DNA of 24,805 bases from a virus. The stretch covers positions 1 to 24,805 of IMG/VR virus record IMGVR_UViG_3300003690_000082; one strand, 5' to 3'. Every line of letters begins with the position of its first letter. The first letter of the stretch is position 1. The position numbers were made by a program, and so were the translations under genes. Shown here piece by piece: positions 9,024-24,805 of this stretch. A model generated the notes under the pieces. It did no database searches. It saw only the letters and a program-made list of their open reading frames with translations, and had not been told where the DNA came from.

Positions 9024-9298
9024 TTGTTATCTGGTATAAACCCATCTGGCATCTTTGGATACATATTCCTGAGAATCGTATCTTCGTCAGCTGCTTCCAT
9101 TAGTATATGTGCCGATATTGCGTTCATATTGTAGGCCATTTCCCTGACAGAAAGAAGGTTTTTGAATTGCCTGGTGGTACTGATCAAGATCGCGCTGTAA
9201 ACTTCCTCTGCCTTTGACACATCCATATCATCGCGTATGCTTTCTGCCAGTTCGTTAATTTTTTCCGACACTCTGTTTAGAATTTCCGTTCTTTCCAT
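9020..9298 (-). CDS. Lone minus-strand hypothetical protein (92 aa)
   Basis: A 92-residue, acidic, mostly helical protein (MERTEILNRVSEKINELAES...). ATG at 9298-9296 is preceded on its strand by a purine-rich GAGAGAGAGG. Its stop and that of the 1027-aa gene are read from the same TTAA (9020-9023), so the two genes are convergent with a four-base overlap. Its start is only 17 bp from the divergent start of the nuclease gene at 9316. It is the only minus-strand gene between the virion and replication modules. No family recognised and no HTH, Cys pair or membrane segment seen. A regulator or small morphogenesis factor is possible, but that is a guess from placement. Confidence 0.7.
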   Translation of the reverse strand: MERTEILNRVSEKINELAESIRDDMDVSKAEEVYSAILISTTRQFKNLLSVREMAYNMNAISAHILMEAADEDTILRNMYPKMPDGFIPDNN

Positions 9299-9315
9299 TG
9301 TGGAGCCTCTCTCTC

Positions 9316-9651
9316 ATGGTTCGGAAATGGCACAGTAAATTTCGCGCCAGAAAAACAAAAACGGACGGTATCATTTTCGACTCCAAAAAGGAAGCAATTC
9401 GGTATCTCGAATTAAAGACCCTTTTCGAGCGAGGCGAAATAAAAGACCTGAAATTACAATTTAAGTTTGACTGCATAGTCAACAACAAGAAAATTTGCTA
9501 CTACCTAGCCGACTTCGTTTACCTTGATTGTGAAGGGGAAATAGTGGTCGAGGATGTGAAATCGGACTACACAGCAAAAAACCCTGTCTATCGATTGAAG
9601 AAAAAGTTGGTCGAAGCACTACATGATGTGGTTATTACTGAGGTAAAATAG
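9316..9651 (+). CDS. DUF1064-like PD-(D/E)XK nuclease (111 aa)
   Basis: Matches the phage DUF1064 pattern: KWHSKFRARKTKTDGIIFDS, then KKEAIRYLELK, an EIKDLKLQFKF strand, and LADFVYLDCEGEIVVEDVKS. Residues E26, D66 and D80-x-K82 sit where a PD-(D/E)XK nuclease has its metal-binding acids and lysine. The family is usually 100-130 aa, so this is full length. In-frame starts exist at TTG 9298 and ATG 9316; I choose 9316 because the family homology begins at KWHSK and GGAG at 9302-9305 lies upstream. A structure-specific (Holliday-junction or flap) endonuclease role has been suggested for such proteins. Here it opens the replication/recombination module, which agrees with that role. Confidence 0.8.
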   Translation: MVRKWHSKFRARKTKTDGIIFDSKKEAIRYLELKTLFERGEIKDLKLQFKFDCIVNNKKICYYLADFVYLDCEGEIVVEDVKSDYTAKNPVYRLKKKLVEALHDVVITEVK

Positions 9652-9652
9652 G

Positions 9653-9681
9653 TTGACAGTCCTTATTTTTTCAGGTAGCGT
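9653..9681 (+). promoter_or_regulatory. Possible sigma70-type promoter before the replication genes
   Basis: A consensus -35 TTGACA (9653-9658) immediately follows the nuclease stop; 17 bases later is TAGCGT (9676-9681), only 3/6 to the -10 consensus. It lies in the 183-base gap before the 9835 gene, the largest gap in the early module, so a promoter here is expected. The weak -10 keeps confidence low. Confidence 0.35.
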
Positions 9682-9699
9682 CTTGAGGCCCGTTAATAG

Positions 9700-9724
9700 A
9701 GGAGGACTTCTTGTGAGGAAATAG
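9700..9724 (+). other. Strong Shine-Dalgarno followed by a three-codon mini-ORF
   Basis: AGGAGG (9700-9705) is followed after seven bases by GTG AGG AAA TAG (9713-9724). The site is as good as any gene's in the window, yet it leads to only Met-Arg-Lys. The rest of the 9652-9834 gap shows no gene. The mini-ORF may be a leader minigene or the relic of a lost gene. Confidence 0.35.
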
Positions 9725-9834
9725 CAGGCTTATTCAGCCAGTAAGAATTTTCAATTTCTCAAAAGCACGGCAAAACGAAAGGCACGGCGAACAGCCACGC
9801 CAATCAAAGTTTACGCCCTGCGAGAGGCAGAATC

Positions 9835-10305
9835 ATGGCAAAGACAAAGCTTCAAGCCGATCTGAAGCAATTCGAAAATACCCTTAAAACTTTGGGGAGT
9901 GATCAGGAATACAGCCCATCGTTTGCCAAGGGTCTTATGGAATTGGCCGATGCATCGGTAAGGGCGGCTCAGGCCGCCAAGAAAAAGATTCAGTCCCTCC
10001 TGATGCAACATCACCATGCAACCACAAAACACCTTTTCGCTCTTGACGGCAAGGACACCGGAACCGTCAATCAACATTTCGGACCGAATCATCAACTGAA
10101 AATCGTCAAGCGCAAGAAGGTGGAATGGGATCAGAATCACCTTGAATTCCTGATGGAGAATCCTGATGTTTCTCCATACATCGAAACAAAATTTAATGTT
10201 AAAGAGGCCGAGTACGACAAGGCACCGATATCCATCAGGGACAGACTTGATGGTGGCCGTACCGTTGTGCCGTCCGATCCTGTTTTCTCAATAGAGGAGA
10301 GGTAG
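9835..10305 (+). CDS. Hypothetical early protein upstream of the Sak4-type ATPase (156 aa)
   Basis: 156 residues, ATG at 9835 with GAGAGG just upstream. The N-terminal half is helical and Ala/Lys/Gln-rich (about 1-60, SVRAAQAAKKKIQSLLMQHH). It then carries a His-rich patch (HHHATTKHLF), a basic strand region (HQLKIVKRKKVEW) and an acidic C-terminus. Proteins of this type commonly precede the AAA_24 ATPase in phage genomes, and the gap to that gene is only three bases, so the two are one operon. Basic residues in the middle might bind nucleic acid, but no catalytic motif is visible. Function unknown. Confidence 0.65.
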   Translation: MAKTKLQADLKQFENTLKTLGSDQEYSPSFAKGLMELADASVRAAQAAKKKIQSLLMQHHHATTKHLFALDGKDTGTVNQHFGPNHQLKIVKRKKVEWDQNHLEFLMENPDVSPYIETKFNVKEAEYDKAPISIRDRLDGGRTVVPSDPVFSIEER

Positions 10306-10308
10306 GCC

Positions 10309-11178
10309 ATGGATATGGTCAGCAAGGCTGAAAGAAACAGGGAACGAAGAGGGCAAAAGATAGCTCTCATCGGGGAAAGTGGTGTAGGTAAAACCACTCA
10401 ACTTTTTTCTCTTCCGCCAAAAAAGACGCTTTTCATTGACCTTGAAGCTGGAGATCTGGCGGTAGATGAATGGGAAGGCGTTTGTGTCCGGCCAAGAACA
10501 TGGGAAGAGTGTACCGACCTCGCTGTACTGGTTGGCGGCATAAACCCTGCTCTTGAAAAAGCAAAGGTTCCGTACTGCAAAAAGCACTACGATCATTGCA
10601 TCAAGAAGTATCCAGAACTTCACAAGAAAATAGCCGATCTCGAATATCTGTTTGTGGATTCGCTAACACACACAGGGCGACTGTCTTTTCAGGAAACCTC
10701 AAACACGCCCGAAGGCCTAAAGGATGCTCGAAAGGCTTATGGAGCGCATGGTCAAAACATGATCAGGTGGCTTACCCAGCTTCAACAAACCAGGCACATG
10801 CACGTTATCTTCCTTTCGATTTTGAATGAAAAGGTTGATGACAATGGTGGCCGGTACTACGACATGCAGATCGAGGGCTCAAAAACCGGAGAAGAGCTTC
10901 CAGGCATCGTCGATGAACTGATCACAATGGTGATAATGGACCCGTTTACTCCGAATCCGTACCGCGCCTTCGTTTGCAAAAAGTTGAATCGCTGGGGATA
11001 TCCCGCCAAGGACAGGGCCGGAAAACTTGAAGAGCAAGAACCGCCAAACCTTGGTGCGCTTATCGAGAAACTGAAAAAGCCCAGATCACAAAAGCTGTTT
11101 GACACCCTGAACTTCGATCTTCCAGCACCGGCAGCCATTGCCGAGGGATCCGAAGACACCCCCCCCGAGAAGGAGTAA
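10309..11178 (+). CDS. AAA_24 / Sak4-type RecA-fold recombination ATPase (289 aa)
   Basis: RecA-fold P-loop ATPase of the phage AAA_24 family, which includes Sak4 single-strand annealing/recombination proteins. Walker A is GESGVGKTT (residues 22-30); an early acidic strand TLFIDLEAGDL (40-50) follows, and Walker B is YLFVDSLTH (113-121). The segment VPYCKKHYDHC (88-97), with Cys and His residues, is typical of this group. A later strand MHVIFLSILNEK (about 164-175) fits the sensor region. The length (289 aa) is normal. The Asp/Glu/Pro-rich tail (GSEDTPPEKE) is probably disordered. It is followed five bases later by a probable SSB gene, the arrangement in which Sak4 proteins act with SSB during recombination-dependent replication. 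Start at ATG 10309, after GAGAGG. Confidence 0.8.
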   Translation: MDMVSKAERNRERRGQKIALIGESGVGKTTQLFSLPPKKTLFIDLEAGDLAVDEWEGVCVRPRTWEECTDLAVLVGGINPALEKAKVPYCKKHYDHCIKKYPELHKKIADLEYLFVDSLTHTGRLSFQETSNTPEGLKDARKAYGAHGQNMIRWLTQLQQTRHMHVIFLSILNEKVDDNGGRYYDMQIEGSKTGEELPGIVDELITMVIMDPFTPNPYRAFVCKKLNRWGYPAKDRAGKLEEQEPPNLGALIEKLKKPRSQKLFDTLNFDLPAPAAIAEGSEDTPPEKE

Positions 11179-11183
11179 GTATC

Positions 11184-11888
11184 ATGAGTCCGATGGATTT
11201 TGGTGTAGATGAGTATGCAGGATCGGGAGAGTACGATGTTCTTCCGCAGGATTCGATTGTCCCGCTAAGAGTCGATCTCGAAAGGGATAAAGAAAACCCG
11301 GACCCAAAAAGCAGTCTGTTTTATCATTCCAACCAGCCGAATTCGAATGTCTTGTTCATGAAATGGAAATTCACGGTTCTGGCTGGAAAATTCAAGGATA
11401 CATGGTTCAGGAACAATCAAACCGTAGCCGGTGGTCAAATAAATGCCAGCGGCCAATCAAAGGGCGCGGTTGTCACTGGGCGCATGGCGAGGCAGATTAT
11501 CGAATCTTCCCGCGGTATCCGTTCGGACGCAACCGATCCCAATAGTGCGGCTGCTCGAGTTCTTCAAAACGACTGGCCGGATCTGGACGGGATGATATTC
11601 CTTGGAAAGGTCGGAATCGAACCCGCAAAACAAGGATATTCAGCCAAGAACAAGCTGGTGGCTGGAATTCCGCCCGATAAAGAAGATTGGTATGACTGGA
11701 GGCAGGGTGGTGGAACACCCACGGCTGTCGCGCCTCCCGCGGTGAATACTCCTAATAATGCCGCGCCACCTGCGACAGCCCCTTCGGTAGCTCCAGTGGC
11801 GGTCCCTGCTGCTGGTTTGACGGGGGGTTTCGAACCTCCGCCAGCCGCTCCTGCCGGCAAAGGTGGTGAGCGTCCAGACTGGGCCTGA
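11184..11888 (+). CDS. Putative phage single-stranded DNA-binding protein (234 aa)
   Basis: Placed directly after the Sak4-type ATPase with a GAAGGAG ribosome site. Residues about 20-170 look like a beta-barrel domain (VPLRVDLERDKENPDPK, NVLFMKWKFTVLAGKFKDTW, GMIFLGKVGIEP) of the DUF669-like phage SSB type. Residues about 178-234 are a Pro/Ala/Val-rich flexible tail ending in GGERPDWA, coded by a GC-rich stretch. A globular DNA-binding core plus a disordered tail with a terminal aromatic is the normal plan of SSBs, where the tail recruits partners. The assignment rests on architecture and neighbours more than on strict sequence identity. Confidence 0.6.
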   Translation: MSPMDFGVDEYAGSGEYDVLPQDSIVPLRVDLERDKENPDPKSSLFYHSNQPNSNVLFMKWKFTVLAGKFKDTWFRNNQTVAGGQINASGQSKGAVVTGRMARQIIESSRGIRSDATDPNSAAARVLQNDWPDLDGMIFLGKVGIEPAKQGYSAKNKLVAGIPPDKEDWYDWRQGGGTPTAVAPPAVNTPNNAAPPATAPSVAPVAVPAAGLTGGFEPPPAAPAGKGGERPDWA

Positions 11889-11893
11889 TTTGA

Positions 11894-11920
11894 CCGTGCG
11901 CTCTTAAGGGCGCCGCACGG
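11894..11920 (+). other. Intergenic hairpin after the SSB gene
   Basis: A perfect 7-bp inverted repeat, CCGTGCG (11894-11900) and CGCACGG (11914-11920), with a 13-base loop that itself holds a CTTAAGG-like core. It starts five bases after the SSB stop. There is no T-run after it, so it is not a classical intrinsic terminator; RNA processing, transcript stabilisation or attenuation are possible. Confidence 0.55.
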
Positions 11921-11998
11921 CCAGTCCCATGGTTGGACGGTTCATTATGTCAAAAGCTAAAACTATCCTTCCGTGGGGCTGGCTCTCTGGGGCTGGCA

Positions 11999-13795
11999 AT
12001 GATTTTACGCTATTACCAAAAAGAAGCGATTGAAAAGGCTAGGGAAAAACTAAAAACTCATAATAACACCCTGATCATCGCCCCTACCGGTGCGGGCAAA
12101 ACCATAATTTTATCTGCACTCATAGAAGGGCTCCACGCTGGTGACGGTGGTGGTGGTCTGTTCGGTCCAAAGAAAACCGTGGTTCTTCAGCACCGCCTGG
12201 AACTGGTAAAACAAAACTCCGAGAAATTTCTGCGTGTAGTTCCCGACTTCCTCCTAAAAACAAGCATTTTGACCGGCAATGAAAAGGATGCCGAGGGGAG
12301 CGTGGTGTTTGCCACCGTTCAAACTCTATCCAGTGAGGCTGGCCTTAACTCGATCACTCACCTTGACTATCTGGTGATCGATGAGGCGCATCATTCAGCT
12401 GCTGATACTTACAAGCAAACCATCGATCATTACCGGGAAATAAACTCCAACCTGAAAGTTGTTGGCCTTACCGCCACGGCTGATCGGGCAGATGGAAAAG
12501 GACTTGGCGATATCTTCGATAACGTGGCCTACAAGATCGAAACCGACATGCTCATTGAAATGGGCTATCTGGTGCCTCCTGACAGTTATGTCATGGATAT
12601 AGGAATCAGCGAGGAAATTGATGAACTCGGACAGAAGAAAAAGAATATGTCGGAGGAAAAATTCAACAAAGCCTTGGCCGGACTCTACGAACCCGTGCAT
12701 TACCGGGTGGTCGAGGAATGGGAAAGAATGGCTTCCAGGAAACATACTATTTGTTTTTGCACGACCATCGATGAAGCTGTTGCGATGTCGGAACTTTTCA
12801 AAGAGAAGGGTCATAACGCAGGATATATACATTCCAGGCTTCCTTGGAAGGAAAACAGGCTTGTTATAGACAAATTCCATTCAGGTGAACTTCAAATTAT
12901 TTTCAATGTCGCCATCCTGACAGAAGGTTTCGATTGCCCCACGGTAAACTGCGTAATGCTAATGCGTTCATGCTCCGCGAAATCCACAATGATTCAGATG
13001 GTGGGCCGAGGACTTCGGCCGGTGGTCGAAGAGAAAGACCGCTGGATGGAAAAACTGGACTGCCTGGTCATGGATTTTGGCGATAGCCTTAAAATTCATG
13101 GCACCTTCAGGTCTGATGTGAATCTCGAAAAGATAAAAGAGCTCAGAAGAGATCACAGGGTCATCCAGTTGATGTGTCCGAAATGCGGGAAACTCATTTT
13201 CGTTGAAGAAGTAGATGAATACTGCCCGAAATGCGGGGAGGAAATCCTGGAAGCAATAGAAGATGGGAGTGATAAAACCGCAAAAGGGCCAATCGGAACG
13301 GGTAGAATTCCACTTAAAAACTTTTCCATGGTGCCGATTGATTTAACAAACAATTCCCCATTTGCCTGGATGGATATGGCCAATATATTCCCGAATGTTG
13401 GGGGGTCGATCATGGTGGCTACCGGGAGGGATCATTTCGTTTCCATGAAAGAGATAGAAAAGGATGTATGGATGTCGGTTGGAATACCAAGAAAGGGGCT
13501 GGCTGAATTTCTCGGTGTTGGCCGGGAGGCCATGGCTTTCGCTTATTGCAATAATTATATGTCGATGCACGAGAATGTTTCCAGCTCCAAAAAGTCATCT
13601 TCTTGGCATCGAGAAACGCCTTCAGACAAGCAATACAAGATGATCAAACGTCTTGGGTGGGATCCGAATGCGGGTGACGGACACCCGAACAATCGATACG
13701 AAGCCGCATGTATTATTTCATTCTGTTTTCACAAGAAAAAGTACAAGGCGGTTTTGGACTCTGTTTTAGAGAAGAGGAGCGTGGTTCATGGATAA
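11999..13795 (+). CDS. SF2 DEAH-box DNA helicase with zinc ribbon (598 aa)
   Basis: ATP-dependent superfamily 2 helicase. Counting from ATG 11999: motif I APTGAGKT (28-35), motif II DEAH (128-131), motif III TATA (158-161), then motif V-like ILTEGFDCP (307-314) and motif VI QMVGRGLRP (333-341). A CPKC-x12-CPKC zinc ribbon (393-412) follows, and the C-terminal 170 residues end in a SDKQYKMIKRLGW-type module seen in phage helicases. The frame stays open upstream to a TTG at 11933, but MILRYYQKEAI is the usual helicase beginning. The ribosome site before 11999 is weak (GGGG), so coupling or a leader hairpin may control it. It sits between SSB and small replication genes, implying unwinding during replication or recombination. 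Confidence 0.85.
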   Translation: MILRYYQKEAIEKAREKLKTHNNTLIIAPTGAGKTIILSALIEGLHAGDGGGGLFGPKKTVVLQHRLELVKQNSEKFLRVVPDFLLKTSILTGNEKDAEGSVVFATVQTLSSEAGLNSITHLDYLVIDEAHHSAADTYKQTIDHYREINSNLKVVGLTATADRADGKGLGDIFDNVAYKIETDMLIEMGYLVPPDSYVMDIGISEEIDELGQKKKNMSEEKFNKALAGLYEPVHYRVVEEWERMASRKHTICFCTTIDEAVAMSELFKEKGHNAGYIHSRLPWKENRLVIDKFHSGELQIIFNVAILTEGFDCPTVNCVMLMRSCSAKSTMIQMVGRGLRPVVEEKDRWMEKLDCLVMDFGDSLKIHGTFRSDVNLEKIKELRRDHRVIQLMCPKCGKLIFVEEVDEYCPKCGEEILEAIEDGSDKTAKGPIGTGRIPLKNFSMVPIDLTNNSPFAWMDMANIFPNVGGSIMVATGRDHFVSMKEIEKDVWMSVGIPRKGLAEFLGVGREAMAFAYCNNYMSMHENVSSSKKSSSWHRETPSDKQYKMIKRLGWDPNAGDGHPNNRYEAACIISFCFHKKKYKAVLDSVLEKRSVVHG

Positions 13796-14240
13796 GGAAA
13801 CCCAGCGAATATTAGGAAAGATTCAGAGACAAATCGACAAAGGCGAGAGCCTCGCCGCGGCGGCCAGCAAGGTTGGATGGCGGCGGCAAAGAGCTCACGC
13901 CCACCTGGCGAGAGGGAATCTCACGATCAAGGAAAAGGTCTTTCCCAAAACAAAAGTCGATGCCCCCGAGATTTACCGAAAATTCGGAAAGGTTGTCGCG
14001 CATATGATTGAAGACAAAAAATACGGAAGCACCTTACTGATGGTTGCCACATTTTTTGTTCAATTTGTTGCAGATATTGATGACAAGAAAGCCTACAACG
14101 TGGTGATTACTCGATTCGCAAACTGGATCCTGGATAAAGCGCCTCACAGAAATTCCGTTCAATTCCTTTTGTATTGTTCCAACCCTAACACCAGTCTTCT
14201 AAGAAAAGTGTGTGTAGCGAGGTACTTGATCAATGCCTGA
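13788..14240 (+). CDS. Hypothetical replication-region protein (150 aa)
   Basis: Starts at ATG 13788, eight bases inside the end of the helicase gene, after GAGGAG. The N-terminus is basic with a possible helix-turn-helix-like stretch (GESLAAAASKVGWRRQRAHAHL, about 18-39), which might bind DNA. The rest is helical with a hydrophobic centre (STLLMVATFFVQFVADI, about 82-98) and two Cys near the C-terminus. I do not recognise the family. Overlaps on both sides place it in the helicase/nuclease operon. Confidence 0.65.
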   Translation: MDKETQRILGKIQRQIDKGESLAAAASKVGWRRQRAHAHLARGNLTIKEKVFPKTKVDAPEIYRKFGKVVAHMIEDKKYGSTLLMVATFFVQFVADIDDKKAYNVVITRFANWILDKAPHRNSVQFLLYCSNPNTSLLRKVCVARYLINA

Positions 14241-14643
14241 AAAGTTTGAGTTCCTTAAGGGCGATGAAACCGTCTATTCCTCCAGCCTGGATGTCTTTGG
14301 CGGGAAAGAACACCAGGCCTGGGGCGCCTGTATTCCTAAGGTAGCCGAACTTCTGGGTGAGTGCGGCTGGGAAACTCGCTTGAATGAACTATCGAAAGAT
14401 AAGATCAAGCAGCTCATCCTGATCATCACGCTTGAATTTGAAAAATGGATGAAGCTAGAGCAATTGCCGGAAGGTGAGGCTCCGTTGTTTTTCAATACAA
14501 AAGTTAAAATAGACCTTCCCAAAGAGAAGGGCGGTTCTACGGGTGGCCTCATCCCGCCTGACATGGAAACGCCAACAAGGCCGAATACCGGTCCTGTAAC
14601 CGATGCTGATTTTCCCTGGGAAACTGATGGCGAACAATTTTAA
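14233..14643 (+). CDS. Hypothetical acidic-tailed protein (136 aa)
   Basis: ATG at 14233 overlaps the previous gene by eight bases. Residues 1-85 look globular and helical (WGACIPKVAELLGECGWETR, KIKQLILIITLEFEKWM). Residues about 100-136 are Pro/Gly-rich and finish in the acidic aromatic tail DADFPWETDGEQF. Such a tail recalls the partner-binding tails of SSB-type proteins, so an accessory role in the replication complex is possible. No domain family was recognised, and the tail similarity could be coincidental. Confidence 0.6.
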   Translation: MPEKFEFLKGDETVYSSSLDVFGGKEHQAWGACIPKVAELLGECGWETRLNELSKDKIKQLILIITLEFEKWMKLEQLPEGEAPLFFNTKVKIDLPKEKGGSTGGLIPPDMETPTRPNTGPVTDADFPWETDGEQF

Positions 14644-14654
14644 GGAGCAAGTAA

Positions 14655-14732
14655 ATGAGAAACGGGAGAAATAAATACAGGAACGAAGAGAGAAGGAAGG
14701 GGGGCCTGGCCAATGACTCAAATGACCGGTAA
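14655..14732 (+). CDS. Possible 25-aa basic micro-protein
   Basis: ATG at 14655 follows an AAGGAG site (14642-14647) with seven bases spacing and reads MRNGRNKYRNEERRKGG to a TAA at 14730-14732. It overlaps the start of the Cas4-like gene (14713) in another frame. Very short and Arg/Asn-rich; it may instead serve only to couple translation into the nuclease gene. Confidence 0.3.
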   Translation: MRNGRNKYRNEERRKGGLANDSNDR

Positions 14733-15498
14733 TAATTATTTCGCTCGTGTCATAAAAAATATTGAGAAAGGACAGCTTAAAAAACAAAAGAAGCAAAAGC
14801 CTCGAAACTATATCGGAGGCTCAGGCCTTGGACGGGAGTGTGAAAGGCGCATCCAGTATGACCTGACCCATCCCGGCATGAAAGAGATGCCAGAGATGCG
14901 GATGGTTCGCATTTGGGCCCTGGGTGATGCCATTGAAACTTACCTGAAAACTCTCTTGATAGAGGCTGGGTTCGATCTCTGTACGATTAAGGTGGACGAA
15001 AACGGGGACCCGATTTTAGACGAAGAAAGCAAAGAACAGCAGTATAGCTTTTCGATGGGTGATGGTCGGGTCAGGGGCCATATTGATGGTATTTTGCGGA
15101 GTGGCCCAAACATCATGATCTACCCCGCCCTATTTGAAGCCAAGTCGGCCAAACACTCATCGTTCAACAAGTTCGTCAAAAATGGTCTTGCTGTAGAAAA
15201 CCCCTCTTACTATGCTCAGGTTCAATTTTATCAAAAATGCATGAAACTCCTGAACCCGGCTCTCTGGATCATGATGAACAAGGATAATTCAGAAATCTAC
15301 GCTGAACTTGTTCCTCATCATCCTGCCTTCGCGGATTCTCTTGTCGCCAAGGCAGAAAGAATTCTTGAGGCCACTGACACCGGAACCCTTCTTCCGAGAG
15401 GGTTCAACGACAAAACTAACTGGCACTGTAAATATTGTGATTTCCAGAAAGAATGCTGGAAGGAAGAAGAGGCGACTACACCGGAATGGGCGGGATAG
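14713..15498 (+). CDS. Cas4/RecB-like PD-(D/E)XK exonuclease with Fe-S cysteines (261 aa)
   Basis: Phage nuclease of the Cas4/RecB-like PD-(D/E)XK group. Residues seen from ATG 14713: GLGRECERRIQ (38-48) with C43; WALGDAIE (68-75); the GHIDGIL motif with H123 and D125; FEAKS with E142 and K144; and YYAQVQFY with Q169, which is motif QxxxY-like. The C-terminal cysteines C239, C242 and C248 together with C43 match the four ligands of the 4Fe-4S cluster of this family. All catalytic positions are present and the length is typical. Enzymes of this type resect DNA ends and are often paired with annealing ATPases, which agrees with the Sak4-type and SSB genes upstream. It overlaps the primase-helicase gene by 13 bases. 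Confidence 0.85.
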   Translation: MTQMTGNNYFARVIKNIEKGQLKKQKKQKPRNYIGGSGLGRECERRIQYDLTHPGMKEMPEMRMVRIWALGDAIETYLKTLLIEAGFDLCTIKVDENGDPILDEESKEQQYSFSMGDGRVRGHIDGILRSGPNIMIYPALFEAKSAKHSSFNKFVKNGLAVENPSYYAQVQFYQKCMKLLNPALWIMMNKDNSEIYAELVPHHPAFADSLVAKAERILEATDTGTLLPRGFNDKTNWHCKYCDFQKECWKEEEATTPEWAG

Positions 15499-17675
15499 AT
15501 TTCGGCCAGTTCAACAATGAAAACCGGCAAGAATTTAATCCCCACCGAATAGATGACTTAAAAAGAAGCCTGAATGGTTGTGTACTTGAATTCTTGCAAT
15601 GGCTCTTTCCCGAGGGAAAGTTAAAGGGACACGAGTACACCATAGGCACCATCGAAGGTGGCGTTGGAAAATCCACCAGTTTTAATGTGTTGGCTGGAAA
15701 GGAGGGCGTGGGCGGAGATTTTGCTACAGGAGATTTTACTGGCGATTTGATCGATGTCTACTGCAAGGCTACCGGAAAAAATTTCAAGGAAGCCCTCCCT
15801 GAACTTGAGGAATGGACAGGAATTCCTGCCGTCAAGGAGGCCTCTGAAAATCCGGATATCCTCAACATATCTAACCTGCTGCCGGCAGACTTTGATATCC
15901 ATAGCGTTCCGAAATCACAAATTACATTTTATACCTATAAAGACTACGACCTGAATACCCTTCTAACAATCAAGAGAGTATCTCACTCAAGCGGGAAAAA
16001 GAGTTTCTATCCCGAATTTCCCGATGGTTCTAAAAAGATACCAGAAGACTTTGTTCGTCCTCTTTATAACCTTCCCGGCATCAATGGCGCCAGTACGGTA
16101 ATTGTTGTTGAAGGAGAGAAATGCGCCGATTACCTCAACTCTCTTGGCCTGGTGGCCACCACCAGTATTGGCGGAGCTGCCATTCCGCCAGAAAAAACAG
16201 ACTGGAACCCCCTTGAAGGAAAGGTCGTTGTCCTTTGGCCGGACAATGATGATGCTGGAGTAAAACACCAGAAAAGAATACTCGAACGCCTCAAGAAGCT
16301 GGGTGTTCGGAAAATTCGACTGGTTAAACCTCCGAGAAATGTGGATGAGAAATGGGACGCAGCTAATTGCGAACCAAAACTTATCAAGAAGCTTCTTTCT
16401 GCGGCAAAGGTTATTTACCGTCCTATCGATATCATGACCGAGGAGTTTTCCGCCAAAAGTTATGATGAGCACCCGCCAAAAAGGGAGTTCCTTATAGATG
16501 GTGGGTTCGGACTGAATTCATGCTCCATCCTGGCGGCCGAGGGTGGCACCGGGAAGAGTTTTATGTTTCTCGATCTGGCAATCAAGGTGGCTTTTGGAAC
16601 TATCTACCAAGAAGAGGCCTTTGGCGGACAGATCCAGCAGTCAGGAAGCGTGGTGTACTTCTCTGCTGAAGATGGAAGACCAGACATTCACGAGAGAATT
16701 AATTTGGTGGACATAGGAAATCCACCCAGGAGATTCAAAAACACTCCAAATGAATTGAGAATCATTCCCATGCCATCACTTGGAGTGACATTCCCCCTCT
16801 TCTATATGAGGGATGGAATACTCACCGAAAGCGATAACTGGTCGAGTATACGAGAGTCCATTCTCGAGATGGATAACCTGAAACTCATAATTCTAGACCC
16901 GCTCTCCATGCTGGTACATGCAGATGTAAATGCCGATCCATCCATGGGTTCTTTGATCATGGCAGAGTTCAACCGCCTGGCGGTAGAAACGAATTCAGCC
17001 GTATTGATATCCCACCATTTCTCGAAAGGAAATTACGATGCTCCTATTGATACTCCCGAGAAAGCTAGACAGCATGTAAGGGGGACCACAGCATTGGTAG
17101 ATTCGGCCAGAAATGTCTTTTGCCTTTGGAAAGCTACGAAAACTCAGGCCACTGAATCTCTGGCTAACCTTGGAGAGGAATATCAAAGAAATAAAATTTT
17201 TTATGGCGCTACAGTTAAAAGCAATTACCTCACCGAGGACTCGATAAAAACATTTAAAAGAGACTACACCGGAGTTCTTGTTTGTATCGAGAAGAATTAT
17301 GACTCCTCCAAAAATAAGTCGGATAATTCTCTCAATGAGGAAATCAAAAGAATTATTGCCAAAAGATCCCTCGAAGGCCGGCCGGTAACTCTGAAGGGCG
17401 AGGATAAACTTGCGCATGGAGAATTGATAGGAAAATATCAAGATATGATTCAGGGCGTGGAGGGTCTGGACAGCGCTATTAAAAAATTGGTTGATTTTGA
17501 TCCTGATGTCTTTCAGTGCGGAAGCACTGGAAATGACACCTATCAACTCGATGTAAAGGGAGGACAATATTATGTGCGATGGGTCAAAGCCGGTTACATT
17601 AAGGATCACGGGGGTGAGTCTTTTCCGTGCCTTCCAGAGGGACAGGCCGGACTTAAGGGGTTGACAGGCCCCTAG
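15486..17675 (+). CDS. Primase-helicase fusion (TOPRIM plus RepA-like AAA_25 ATPase), 729 aa
   Basis: Replicative primase-helicase. Residues 30-95 are a primase N-terminal domain of the G-GGDFATGDFTGDLIDVY type but without the usual zinc-ligating Cys cluster. A TOPRIM domain follows, with VIVVEGEKCADYL (205-217; catalytic E210), then VVVLWPDNDDAG (247-258; D253, D255). The ATPase domain has Walker A AEGGTGKSF (351-359), YFSAEDG (391-397) and Walker B LIILDPLSML (467-476), and LISHHFSKG (508-515) matches hexameric RepA/DnaB-like helicases. The C-terminal 170 residues are variable. The frame stays open to ATG 15453, but 15486 keeps only a short overlap with the nuclease gene. No DNA polymerase gene is in the window, so host polymerase or one elsewhere is needed. 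The stop lies in a hairpin. Confidence 0.85.
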   Translation: MGGIDFGQFNNENRQEFNPHRIDDLKRSLNGCVLEFLQWLFPEGKLKGHEYTIGTIEGGVGKSTSFNVLAGKEGVGGDFATGDFTGDLIDVYCKATGKNFKEALPELEEWTGIPAVKEASENPDILNISNLLPADFDIHSVPKSQITFYTYKDYDLNTLLTIKRVSHSSGKKSFYPEFPDGSKKIPEDFVRPLYNLPGINGASTVIVVEGEKCADYLNSLGLVATTSIGGAAIPPEKTDWNPLEGKVVVLWPDNDDAGVKHQKRILERLKKLGVRKIRLVKPPRNVDEKWDAANCEPKLIKKLLSAAKVIYRPIDIMTEEFSAKSYDEHPPKREFLIDGGFGLNSCSILAAEGGTGKSFMFLDLAIKVAFGTIYQEEAFGGQIQQSGSVVYFSAEDGRPDIHERINLVDIGNPPRRFKNTPNELRIIPMPSLGVTFPLFYMRDGILTESDNWSSIRESILEMDNLKLIILDPLSMLVHADVNADPSMGSLIMAEFNRLAVETNSAVLISHHFSKGNYDAPIDTPEKARQHVRGTTALVDSARNVFCLWKATKTQATESLANLGEEYQRNKIFYGATVKSNYLTEDSIKTFKRDYTGVLVCIEKNYDSSKNKSDNSLNEEIKRIIAKRSLEGRPVTLKGEDKLAHGELIGKYQDMIQGVEGLDSAIKKLVDFDPDVFQCGSTGNDTYQLDVKGGQYYVRWVKAGYIKDHGGESFPCLPEGQAGLKGLTGP

Positions 17676-17900: not shown

Positions 17901-18101
17901 ATGGCCTATCTTCTGGTAATATTCTGGATGGGAGGTGCATCGATCACGGTTATTGAACCTCCACTGCTGTTACATCCTCGTAGATCTGAAATTTCAGGTT
18001 TAAGGAGATGCGTTCAGATGGCACATTCAATTCGAAAGCATTTCAAGAAAAATGCGATCATTAAAATTAAATGCGTCCCCGAAAGGATGCCCAGAAAATG
18101 A
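17901..18101 (+). CDS. Small protein with N-terminal hydrophobic segment (66 aa)
   Basis: Three consecutive ATG codons (17895, 17898, 17901) are possible; 17901 has the best spacing to GGA at 17891-17893. The N-terminus MAYLLVIFWMGGASITVIE is hydrophobic and could be a membrane anchor or signal-like segment. The remainder is basic with two Cys (RRCVQMAHSI, KIKCVPER). Similar short one-segment proteins with two spaced Cys occur in many phage early regions, with unknown roles. The TGA overlaps the methyltransferase start as ATGA (18098-18101), implying coupled translation. Confidence 0.6.
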   Translation: MAYLLVIFWMGGASITVIEPPLLLHPRRSEISGLRRCVQMAHSIRKHFKKNAIIKIKCVPERMPRK

Positions 18102-19462
18102 AATATGGTTCTGTTTGCTCGGGAATCGAAGCGGCCACCATGGCGTGGGAACCACTTGGCTGGAAGCCGCAGTGGTTCGCCGAAATAGAGAAGTTCCCGT
18201 CTGAAGTGCTGAAACAGAGATACCCGGAGGTAAAAAACATTGGCGACTTTACGAAAATTACCGCAGCAGATGGAGCTATCGACCTCCTCGTCGGAGGAAC
18301 CCCATGTCAATCCTTTTCTGTTGCAGGCAAACGAGCGGGACTGGATGACCCTCGTGGCAACCTCACGCTTGAATTTGTCCGGTTGCTCCGAAGAACTAAG
18401 CCGAAGTGGTTCGTATGGGAAAACGTACCCGGCGTACTTTCCATCGACAAGGGACGCACCTTCGCAGAGTTCCTTCAAGCGGTGGAGGAGTGCGGGTATG
18501 GGTGGGCCTACCGGGTGCTTGACGCTCAATATGTCAGAACACACGGTCATCCCCGAGCAGTTCCCCAGAGACGAAGGCGTGTCTTCGTTGTCGGATATCT
18601 TGGAAACCAAGAATGTGCCGGAGCGGTACTCTTTGAGTCAGAAGGCGTGTGCGGGAATCCTCCGCCGAGCCGATCGAAGGGGAAAGTCGCTTCCACCCTT
18701 CCTGCGTCAGGTGCTGGCACGAGTCGCCCGGATGGACCGGGACTTACCCAAAAATACGAATTCTGCATAACCGAAAAAGATGCGGCCAAACCATTAGGTT
18801 CGCAGGGTAGTGGTTCTGGCTGGCGCAACGATCTTGATCACGAAACCTACATTCCAATACTGGAGGCAGGTGCCAAAAGCGATCCGATGTACACACTCCA
18901 AGCAAAAAAACAGCACGCCATAGGAATTGGAAAGGATAGCGGTCAGGACGCCTCAGGCGCCCCTCCAGCCGTTGCTTTCACTCAGAATAGCCGTGATGAG
19001 GTCAGGGCCATAGGAGGCGATGGCGGTGTCGCTGGGGCCTTGTCTGTGGATGTCGGGGTGAAACAGCAAACATATGTCATGTCGGCAAGGCAAGATCCGG
19101 ATGTTCGGATAGAAATATCGCCGCCGATGGGCAAGGAAGACTACGGCCATGCCATGGCAACCGACAATGTATCTCAAACGCTGAACCAGAGGGACGGTAA
19201 GGGGCCGGGTTCGTACATGAACGGCTCTTTACAGGGATGCCAGATGGTTTCTGGTATGGTCAGGCGTCTAACACCAACAGAATGTGAGCGTCTTCAGGGG
19301 TTTCCTGACGATCACACCCGCATCGCGTGGCGAGGTAAAGCCGCCGAGAACTGTCCTGACGGTCCTCGCTACAGGGCTATAGGCAACTCCATGGCCGTCA
19401 ATGTAATGGAATGGATCGGCGAGAGAATACAGATGGTGGAGGATATTATCAATGATAGTTGA
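18098..19462 (+). CDS. Orphan C5-cytosine DNA methyltransferase (454 aa)
   Basis: Transfers methyl from S-adenosylmethionine to C5 of cytosine in DNA. From ATG 18098: motif I variant YGSVCSGIEAATMAW (3-17), motif IV GGTPCQSFSVAG (66-77) with catalytic C70, motif VI WENVPG (107-112), and motif VIII-like QRRRRVFVVGYL. Near the end are motif IX RRLTPTECERLQGFPD and motif X YRAIGNSMAVNVMEW. About 200 residues between VIII and IX form the variable target-recognition region, low-complexity and Gly/Ser-rich in part. All key residues are intact. No restriction endonuclease is beside it, so it probably protects phage DNA from host restriction or regulates expression. The target site cannot be read from sequence. 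Start overlaps the previous stop (ATGA). Confidence 0.9.
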   Translation: MKYGSVCSGIEAATMAWEPLGWKPQWFAEIEKFPSEVLKQRYPEVKNIGDFTKITAADGAIDLLVGGTPCQSFSVAGKRAGLDDPRGNLTLEFVRLLRRTKPKWFVWENVPGVLSIDKGRTFAEFLQAVEECGYGWAYRVLDAQYVRTHGHPRAVPQRRRRVFVVGYLGNQECAGAVLFESEGVCGNPPPSRSKGKVASTLPASGAGTSRPDGPGLTQKYEFCITEKDAAKPLGSQGSGSGWRNDLDHETYIPILEAGAKSDPMYTLQAKKQHAIGIGKDSGQDASGAPPAVAFTQNSRDEVRAIGGDGGVAGALSVDVGVKQQTYVMSARQDPDVRIEISPPMGKEDYGHAMATDNVSQTLNQRDGKGPGSYMNGSLQGCQMVSGMVRRLTPTECERLQGFPDDHTRIAWRGKAAENCPDGPRYRAIGNSMAVNVMEWIGERIQMVEDIINDS

Positions 19463-23115: not shown

Positions 23116-23811
23116 ATGATAAAAACCCCAGGCCTGAAAATAAAAAAACCAGCATTAAGTATAGTCGCAAAAGAATCGAAGAAAAAAACCAGAACACGAA
23201 AAAAACCCGAACCGATCGTGCCAGAAGAAGACGGTCTGCACTCTAGCCCTGAACAAAATCTAGTCGATGTGGCACACTCGCAAATGGACGCAGGAACTAA
23301 AAAAATTCTGGAGTCTATGTATTTGCACGGAATGAGTATCAAACAAGCCTGCGAACATGCAGGTGTTAAATATTATCGCTCTAAAATGATCGTCGCACGT
23401 TCAGAAGTCGCTAAAGCATATATCGAGCATCTACTTGAAAGAGCCGCCGTTATACGCGAATTCGGAGTGGATGACCTGCACCTCGTGGAACTGGTTAAAA
23501 TACGAGATATGGCCAGAAATACCGGCCAGGGAGCAGCAGCAACTCGAGCGCATGAAATATGTATGAAAGCAATCGGCCGCCTTTCAAAGGAAGAAAGGCC
23601 TCAAGATTCACTTAAATCAGTCAAGGAAATGACAAGGAAAGAAATGCTCGAAGAATTTTCTAGATATAAGATGAAGGCTGACGGGGAACCGCTTGTTTCT
23701 ACTGAGAAATCAGTCCAAAAAGAGAAGGCGGAGCTGCTGGCGCGCGGGTCGCGCCCCGCCGCCATTCTATCGCCCCCCAACGACATCGGCGCGCGCATTA
23801 ATTTCGCGTGA
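23116..23811 (+). CDS. terS: Probable small terminase subunit (231 aa)
   Basis: Start at ATG 23116 with AAAGGA upstream; an in-frame TTG at 23083 is less likely. Residues 1-35 are Lys/Arg-rich. A helix-turn-helix-like segment follows (LESMYLHGMSIKQACEHAGV, 65-84), which would recognise the packaging site. A helical oligomerisation region around VKIRDMARNTGQGAAATRAHEICMKAIGRL (127-156) has the look of small-terminase helices, with a long flexible tail behind it. The C-terminal 27 residues are coded by abruptly GC-rich DNA (from about 23730). A generic HTH regulator is the main alternative. The large subunit is not adjacent; instead a repeat-rich zone follows that might hold its recognition site. 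Confidence 0.55.
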   Translation: MIKTPGLKIKKPALSIVAKESKKKTRTRKKPEPIVPEEDGLHSSPEQNLVDVAHSQMDAGTKKILESMYLHGMSIKQACEHAGVKYYRSKMIVARSEVAKAYIEHLLERAAVIREFGVDDLHLVELVKIRDMARNTGQGAAATRAHEICMKAIGRLSKEERPQDSLKSVKEMTRKEMLEEFSRYKMKADGEPLVSTEKSVQKEKAELLARGSRPAAILSPPNDIGARINFA

Positions 23812-23832
23812 CTGCGCGCGTATCCGTTTTAT

Positions 23833-23924
23833 ATGGGAGCCATCGCCGGCGCGCGCGCACGACAAATAATGTCGTTTCTGGACAAATAATGTCTGCCGAT
23901 GGGAGCCACCGCCGGCGCGCGCGC
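23833..23924 (+). repeat. Two 26-bp GC-rich direct repeats with alternating CG tracts
   Basis: Copy 1 (23833-23858) and copy 2 (23899-23924) begin ATGGGAGCCATCGCCGGCGC and differ at one base (T/C). Each ends in an alternating GC run of six to twelve bases, a Z-DNA-prone pattern. The copies are 66 bp apart (start to start) and flank the paired GACA-N5-TGTC sites. No gene is seen in 23812-24207. Confidence 0.85.
23861..23893 (+). promoter_or_regulatory. Twin 13-bp sites GACA-N5-TGTC with 20-bp phasing
   Basis: The identical sequence GACAAATAATGTC appears at 23861-23873 and 23881-23893. Each is an inverted pair of GACA/TGTC half-sites around an all-A/T spacer. Centres are 20 bp apart, about two helical turns, so two protein dimers could bind on one face. 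It follows the probable small-terminase gene. Confidence 0.6.
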
Positions 23925-23942
23925 GCGGCCATTAAATAGTCT

Positions 23943-24103
23943 TGGGTTTTGGTATGTTTTAGTGGGTTTTGGTAGGTTTTGGTATGTTTTGGTTTGATAG
24001 GTTTTGGTGGGTTTTGGTAGGTTTTGGGTTTGGTGGGTTTTGGTATGTTTTGGTAGGTTTTGGGTTTGGTGGGTTTTGGTATGTTTTGGTAGGTTTTGGG
24101 TTT
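23943..24103 (+). repeat. G/T-rich tandem repeat array with 36-bp period
   Basis: About 160 bases made of GGTTTTGG-type units on the plus strand. Two identical 36-bp copies (24019-24054 and 24055-24090) and a 13-base partial third (24091-24103) follow a more degenerate portion. Many GG/GGG runs give G-quadruplex potential, with an adenine/cytosine-rich complement. Open frames in both strands (12-residue repeating peptides) are by-products of the 36-bp period, not supported genes. Confidence 0.8.
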
Positions 24104-24207
24104 CCAGGCGCCGGCGGCCGGCCTGGCGATGAGCTCTTGAGCGAGATAAACTCCAGGCCAGCCACGGCAGCTTATGCCGGCCCAGAGTCTCCCGGTGCTA
24201 GCTGTTT

Positions 24208-24393
24208 TTATTCATAATGTTTTACAGCGGCGGAAATAATGCGTTCCCGTTCCCGCTCCGAAAAAGTTGGCATGAGATAGTTCCCCGATCCAGACTGCGC
24301 CGTGAGCAGGTCGAAGGCCGATTTGGTATTCCACTGTTGCTTGAAAACATCCCAATACTTTACTCTTCCGTCATTTCGGATTTTGGTTTTCAC
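24208..24393 (-). CDS. Hypothetical minus-strand protein (61 aa)
   Basis: Starts with GTG at 24393 on the minus strand; GGAGG precedes it by seven bases and the start overlaps the upstream gene's stop by GTGA. 61 residues, mixed charged (KTKIRNDGRVKYWDVFKQQ), with a helical end (SERERERIISAAVKHYE). No motif recognised. Last gene of a three-gene minus-strand operon running toward the repeat zone. Coupled translation and good ribosome sites support a real gene. Confidence 0.6.
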   Translation of the reverse strand: MKTKIRNDGRVKYWDVFKQQWNTKSAFDLLTAQSGSGNYLMPTFSERERERIISAAVKHYE

Positions 24394-24581
24394 TCTCCGA
24401 CCTCCATGTTTGTGGGGTCAGGAATGACACTGTTGAGTTTTTCGTACAGCTGACCGCATGTGGACAGCGCGCGAGGCGACAGCCGCTCGCCGCAATATTC
24501 GCGAATGTTTCCAAGAGCATCCTCCAGCACCTTGACCTCCTCTACGGCCAGTTCAACTTTCACGACCAGTTCAACTTTCAT
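24390..24581 (-). CDS. Hypothetical minus-strand protein (63 aa)
   Basis: ATG at 24581 overlaps the preceding stop as TAATG, with GGAGG about nine bases upstream. The start is an 18-bp tandem duplication (MKVELV followed by VKVELA), so a second start, GTG at 24563, exists in the same frame. The rest is helical and acidic, with two Cys. Family unknown; middle gene of the minus-strand operon. Confidence 0.6.
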   Translation of the reverse strand: MKVELVVKVELAVEEVKVLEDALGNIREYCGERLSPRALSTCGQLYEKLNSVIPDPTNMEVGE

Positions 24582-24805
24582 TATTCGATGACCTCCGTGA
24601 TAGTGTGAAATGCTTTTTTGAGTTCATTGATCAGACCGTGCCGGCCAGTGGTCACACCTCGGTCGTAGGCACTTTCGCTTATGACACGCGCCTCTTGCGC
24701 CATCTCTTTTCCGCGCTCGACTCCAGCGTAGAATTTCTCGTTCAGGTCGCCGACATTGAAGGCTCGGGTTTCGAGAACTGATTTGCGGCCCTGCTCGTAA
24801 CCATT
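24581..24805 (-). CDS. Hypothetical minus-strand protein, N-terminus outside window
   Basis: Open on the minus strand from the window edge to TAA at 24583-24581, 74 residues seen (NGYEQGRKSVLETRAF..., then AYDRGVTTGRHGLINELKKA). It is a helical, charged protein without a motif I recognise. The stop overlaps the next start (TAATG). The true start lies beyond the right edge. Confidence 0.6.
   Translation of the reverse strand, partial: NGYEQGRKSVLETRAFNVGDLNEKFYAGVERGKEMAQEARVISESAYDRGVTTGRHGLINELKKAFHTITEVIE

Follow-up and report, generated by a model that had tools for sequence, protein, structure and literature searches.

Tandem repeats of the Borg elements have, in the excerpts of PMC9879509 drawn on here, periods of 3n where they are genic, while the intergenic ones mostly do not and are of mixed period. 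The array described in this work, from an uncultured phage, shares with them its extrachromosomal tandem character, the 3n period of genic and the mixed period of intergenic repeats, a strand composition bias and an apparently recent origin. Borg repeats, however, are A-biased, perfect and pervasive (same excerpts), whereas the phage array is made of G and T with partly diverged units. Short G-rich arrays in spacers, some of them between convergent genes, are also described for Xanthomonas and Nostoc (PMC4692102, in part); those are GGGAATC heptamers with G3 tracts, whereas the phage array carries mostly GG tracts, and Xanthomonas holds well over a hundred heptamer sites per genome (same part of PMC4692102) against a single array here. 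At the level of RNA, the leftward transcript of the locus recalls the rut sites as defined in sections of PMC9160355 and PMC6407284, with a C-rich, G-poor and unstructured RNA followed by a hairpin, but the candidate tract of this locus is a tandem repeat. A fourth likeness is to the pac site of SPP1 and SF6, which also has direct repeats near an HTH gene, although that site lies where a proven small terminase gene begins and contains other repeat boxes (PMC4737164, in part).

Composition and periodicity of the array

The DNA analysed, referred to as the window, is the whole 24,805-base virus record IMGVR_UViG_3300003690_000082. As the first-pass annotation had stated, it contains a real array of about 160 bases with exact 36-bp copies, which occupies positions 23943-24103 (161 nt, no strand assigned) and is built from GGTTTTGGTA-like decamers with a higher-order period of 36. 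The strand asymmetry pointed out in the same annotation was confirmed over the full 161 nt, the + strand having 86 T, 64 G, 11 A and no C. The corresponding C-free run is 162 nt long, and the next longest in the window reaches 34 nt. Eighty distantly related IMG/VR loci, obtained from a four-sequence primase alignment and used only as a baseline (813,547 bases), showed no C- or G-free run longer than 111 nt; one of 174 nt occurs in L011, which belongs to a set of 17 loci retrieved because they carry decamer arrays.

TRF described the array as 4.1 copies of period 36 (90% matches, score 236, 23958-24103) and also as 16.8 copies of period 10, in keeping with a minisatellite, whose units follow one another head to tail and measure at least about 10 bp. 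It is the top-scoring TRF row in the window and the 80 related viral loci together, which bears out the earlier remark that phage intergenic DNA is seldom so repetitive. Maxima of the autocorrelation fall at 10 (0.72) and 36 (0.78), and the longest exact repeat measures 57 nt, with copies starting at 24011 and 24047. Composition does not account for this order: when the array was shuffled 500 times with its dinucleotides preserved, autocorrelation never exceeded 0.63 and no repeat was longer than 19 nt, both short of the observed values. The array is moreover graded, with diverged units on the left and perfect ones on the right, where the 36-bp period is perfect over 24011-24103, probably its youngest part. 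Spacing between anchors along the array runs 10, 10, 10, 10, 15, 10, 10, 16, 10, 10, 16, 10 and 10; the 36-bp period first proposed therefore stands, with the basic unit corrected to a decamer in 10-10-16 spacing.

Genes and spacers around the array

The array lies at a point of gene convergence, in agreement with the first-pass annotation. From the left comes a + strand gene (23116-23811) with a helical, HTH-like product of unproven family, and from the right three short - strand ORFs are transcribed toward the array (24208-24805 as called: 24208-24393, 24390-24581 and 24581-24805, the last one open), which overlap by a few bases and have GGAGG-type ribosome sites at two of their starts. An 18-bp tandem duplication (24544-24580) is found at the start of one of these short ORFs.

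The array, with a GC fraction of 0.40, is separated from the genes by two GC-rich spacers (0.60 and 0.66), each predicted to form a strong hairpin in the leftward, - strand RNA: -54.7 kcal/mol (z -2.0) for 23812-23942 and -51.4 kcal/mol (z -2.4) for 24104-24207. On the + strand, the spacer RNA does not fold more strongly than shuffles do (z 0.37). GACAAATAATGTC occurs as two exact copies at a distance of 20 bp (23861-23873 and 23881-23893), flanked by two 37-nt direct repeats (at 23833 and 23899); in the leftward RNA these copies fold into small hairpins carried by a long GC stem. This pair could possibly represent operators or an old element end. The paired 13-mers at 23861-23893 resemble insertion-sequence ends, but such an assignment was dropped, the paired motif being unmatched in viral contigs and the spacer in phages and, apart from two weak GC-rich matches of 32-33 nt, in plasmids.

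Origin of the array in a repeat-prone genome

Searches for relatives of the locus returned little. No viral contig matched a stretch of the array searched as an exact string, the spacer had no match in phages and only two weak matches of 32-33 nt in plasmids, both to its GC-rich part, and Rfam and tRNA scans were empty. Used as single queries of IMG/VR, the HTH gene, the primase-helicase and a 1027-aa protein each returned no relative, and the HTH and 1027-aa proteins were also without match in the phage search. What the 80 loci have in common with the window are replication genes and a methyltransferase; they share neither its spacer nor its HTH gene and, apart from short segments of the 1027-aa protein, hardly any of its structural genes. 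The replication block of the window (9298-17675) comprises resolvase-like, Sak4-like, helicase, Cas4-domain exonuclease and primase-helicase genes, which have relatives among the 80 loci, where nearly all structural genes have none. A C-5 cytosine DNA methyltransferase follows at 18071-19462, recognised in two matched stretches.

A three-unit decamer pattern (GTTTTGGTNN x3) occurs in two viral contigs of the same sequence and in 15 genome contigs from unrelated phyla. With a relaxed two-unit pattern, 3 of 398 genomes of one phylum were hit, one of them the seed, compared with 5 of 398 for the backwards control, and a widespread decamer family was rejected on these counts. The decamer arrays found elsewhere are alike in composition but arose as independent repeats and do not form a family. 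Two of them, at 7394 in L001 and 6408 in L002, are identical together with their flanks, on IMG/VR contigs with different sample numbers, and in L009, an Alistipes MAG, a degenerate, roughly ten-base-periodic spacer adjoins the decamer array from 1231.

The genome itself is rich in repeats. TRF-covered bases amount to 23.5 per kb of the window, and still to 17.1 when the array is left out, compared with 3.3 pooled in the 80 related viral loci; the window ranks second of 81 behind L032 (53.4 per kb), so its density is high but not unique. Such a density is better read as a general trait of the genome than as the mark of a special site. Apart from the array, every TRF repeat of the window scoring at least 50 lies inside an ORF and has a period divisible by 3. 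Strong tandem repeats with periods of 12, 36, 39 and 60 are present at 2002-2532, in the Pro/Gly-rich part of a 670-aa ORF (742-2754), the C-terminal part of which weakly matches tape-measure families.

Altogether, we regard it as probable, if well short of certain, that the array is an intergenic, non-coding minisatellite that grew by slippage in a repeat-prone and otherwise poorly related phage. The observed sequence, its periods, its frame-breaking steps and the repeat-rich genome are what this interpretation builds on. A GGTTTTGGTA-like decamer in the convergent spacer would first have been duplicated, by slippage during replication or by unequal recombination, after which a 10+10+16 block would have turned into the 36-bp higher-order unit, and this unit would have been copied again recently to give the identical right-hand copies. 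The convergent spacer may tolerate the array because it interrupts neither a promoter nor a reading frame there, and tandem repeats presumably arise readily in this phage, or through the replication of its host, genes included. A dedicated function would then be unnecessary, and if the array affects leftward transcription at all, it would do so as a side effect; slippage, recency and lack of function are the parts of the minisatellite account that we infer. The absence of C over 161 nt and the strong hairpins on both sides are, nevertheless, more orderly than slippage alone requires.

Functional and coding alternatives

The leading functional rival, to which we give a clearly smaller though serious chance, is a selected Rho-dependent terminator. 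Transcripts of the leftward - strand operon would expose in the array a G-free, C/A-rich and single-stranded rut tract, on which Rho would load and then free the polymerase at the next GC-rich hairpin, before it produces antisense to the + strand operon. The leftward RNA of the array is unstructured (MFE 0 kcal/mol), lacks G for 161 nt and sits between the hairpins of -51.4 and -54.7 kcal/mol. Its %C-%G, calculated in 78-nt windows, reaches 44.9, the maximum of the whole stretch (35.9 is the next value outside the array) and a value that none of 83 other viral loci reaches (their best is 42.3), and the only G-free 78-nt windows that obey the C-spacing rule, 48 in number, fall within it. The leftward RNA of the array is thus the window's most extreme Rho-utilisation-like tract. 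An unstructured 78-nt tract with C in excess of G and spaced C residues is present in this RNA, and the predicted hairpin of 23812-23942 falls within the 150 nt downstream in which a GC-rich hairpin or pause site is expected. A G-free unstructured tract followed by a hairpin corresponds to the sequence description of a Rho-dependent terminator, as given in portions of PMC6407284 and PMC9160355, and the placement of the predicted terminator would stop the leftward operon.

Several observations argue against such a terminator. A loose rut rule fires in 51 regions of the + and 75 of the - strand of the window and therefore has little specificity. The longest chain of YC dinucleotides at 9-13 nt spacing has five members, a six-member chain not being found. 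Moreover, any G-rich, C-free repeat would give similar scores. Rut properties do not follow the efficiency of strong terminators either, according to a portion of PMC9160355. The orientation rule expected of a Rho function did not appear across the 17 unrelated decamer loci (16 distinct), whose gene context by crude ORF calls is mixed: convergent in L007, L009, L012 and L016, co-directional in L001/L002, L004, L011 and L013, divergent in L003, L008, L014 and L017, and one-sided or not clear in L005, L006, L010 and L015. Rut sites, to our knowledge, do not usually take the form of tandem repeats, and no tandem-repeat rut at convergent genes was found in the open-access literature, which does not prove its absence in print.

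A pac- or cos-like packaging site, at which a terminase ring of the adjoining HTH protein would bind one decamer, matching one helical turn, with each HTH, appears improbable. The SPP1 pac site does have direct repeats at its small terminase gene, and within small terminase rings neighbouring HTHs stand about one DNA turn apart, in the part of PMC4737164 used here. The adjoining gene (23116-23811) is likewise HTH-like, with weak, sub-threshold similarity to sigma-70 region 4, but its product has no Pfam or PHROG match at E ≤ 0.01 and no terminase match in Pfam, PHROG or NCBIfam, and its low-confidence helical model (mean pLDDT 62.1) gave no fold match with E ≤ 0.001. No large terminase was recognised adjoining this gene, and the jumps of 15-16 bp in the array break the helical phase. 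The "probable small terminase" of the first-pass annotation is consequently not established; the product is likely an HTH DNA-binding protein, and a terminase is possible. Nothing was found in support of the packaging or fork-stopping roles once suggested for the array, and its description as telomere-like comes down to a likeness of letters. The array is not at a contig end but stops 702 nt inside a contig that may itself be a fragment, a position that bears on the contig alone.

Still less credit can be given to a quadruplex or replication fork barrier formed by the G-rich strand. Many GG tracts do fall on one strand, but quadruplex prediction, which the earlier proposal had called for, returned for the array a G4Hunter maximum of 1.2 and no G3 motif, hence neither four short-loop G3 tracts nor a score clearly above 1.2, with absolute values of up to 1.88 elsewhere in the window. 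The quadruplex potential of the array is borderline. Hardly tenable, finally, is a conserved protein-coding repeat (PKPTKTYQNPPN on the - strand), for although 36 is divisible by 3 and the array is crossed by ORFs of 68 (-) and 82 (+) codons, most unit steps (10, 15, 16) cannot be divided by three, those of 10 and 16 shifting the frame, and the - strand ORF across the array has no family match.

Understood as a minisatellite, the preferred interpretation, the array would be of little import beyond showing that this phage genome is prone to repeats. There is, at rather long odds, a more specific scenario in which repeat expansion built a long G-free rut tract between hairpins that insulates the rightward operon from antisense, with a strength tunable through copy number. 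If the rut reading were true, slippage could create and tune a transcription terminator.
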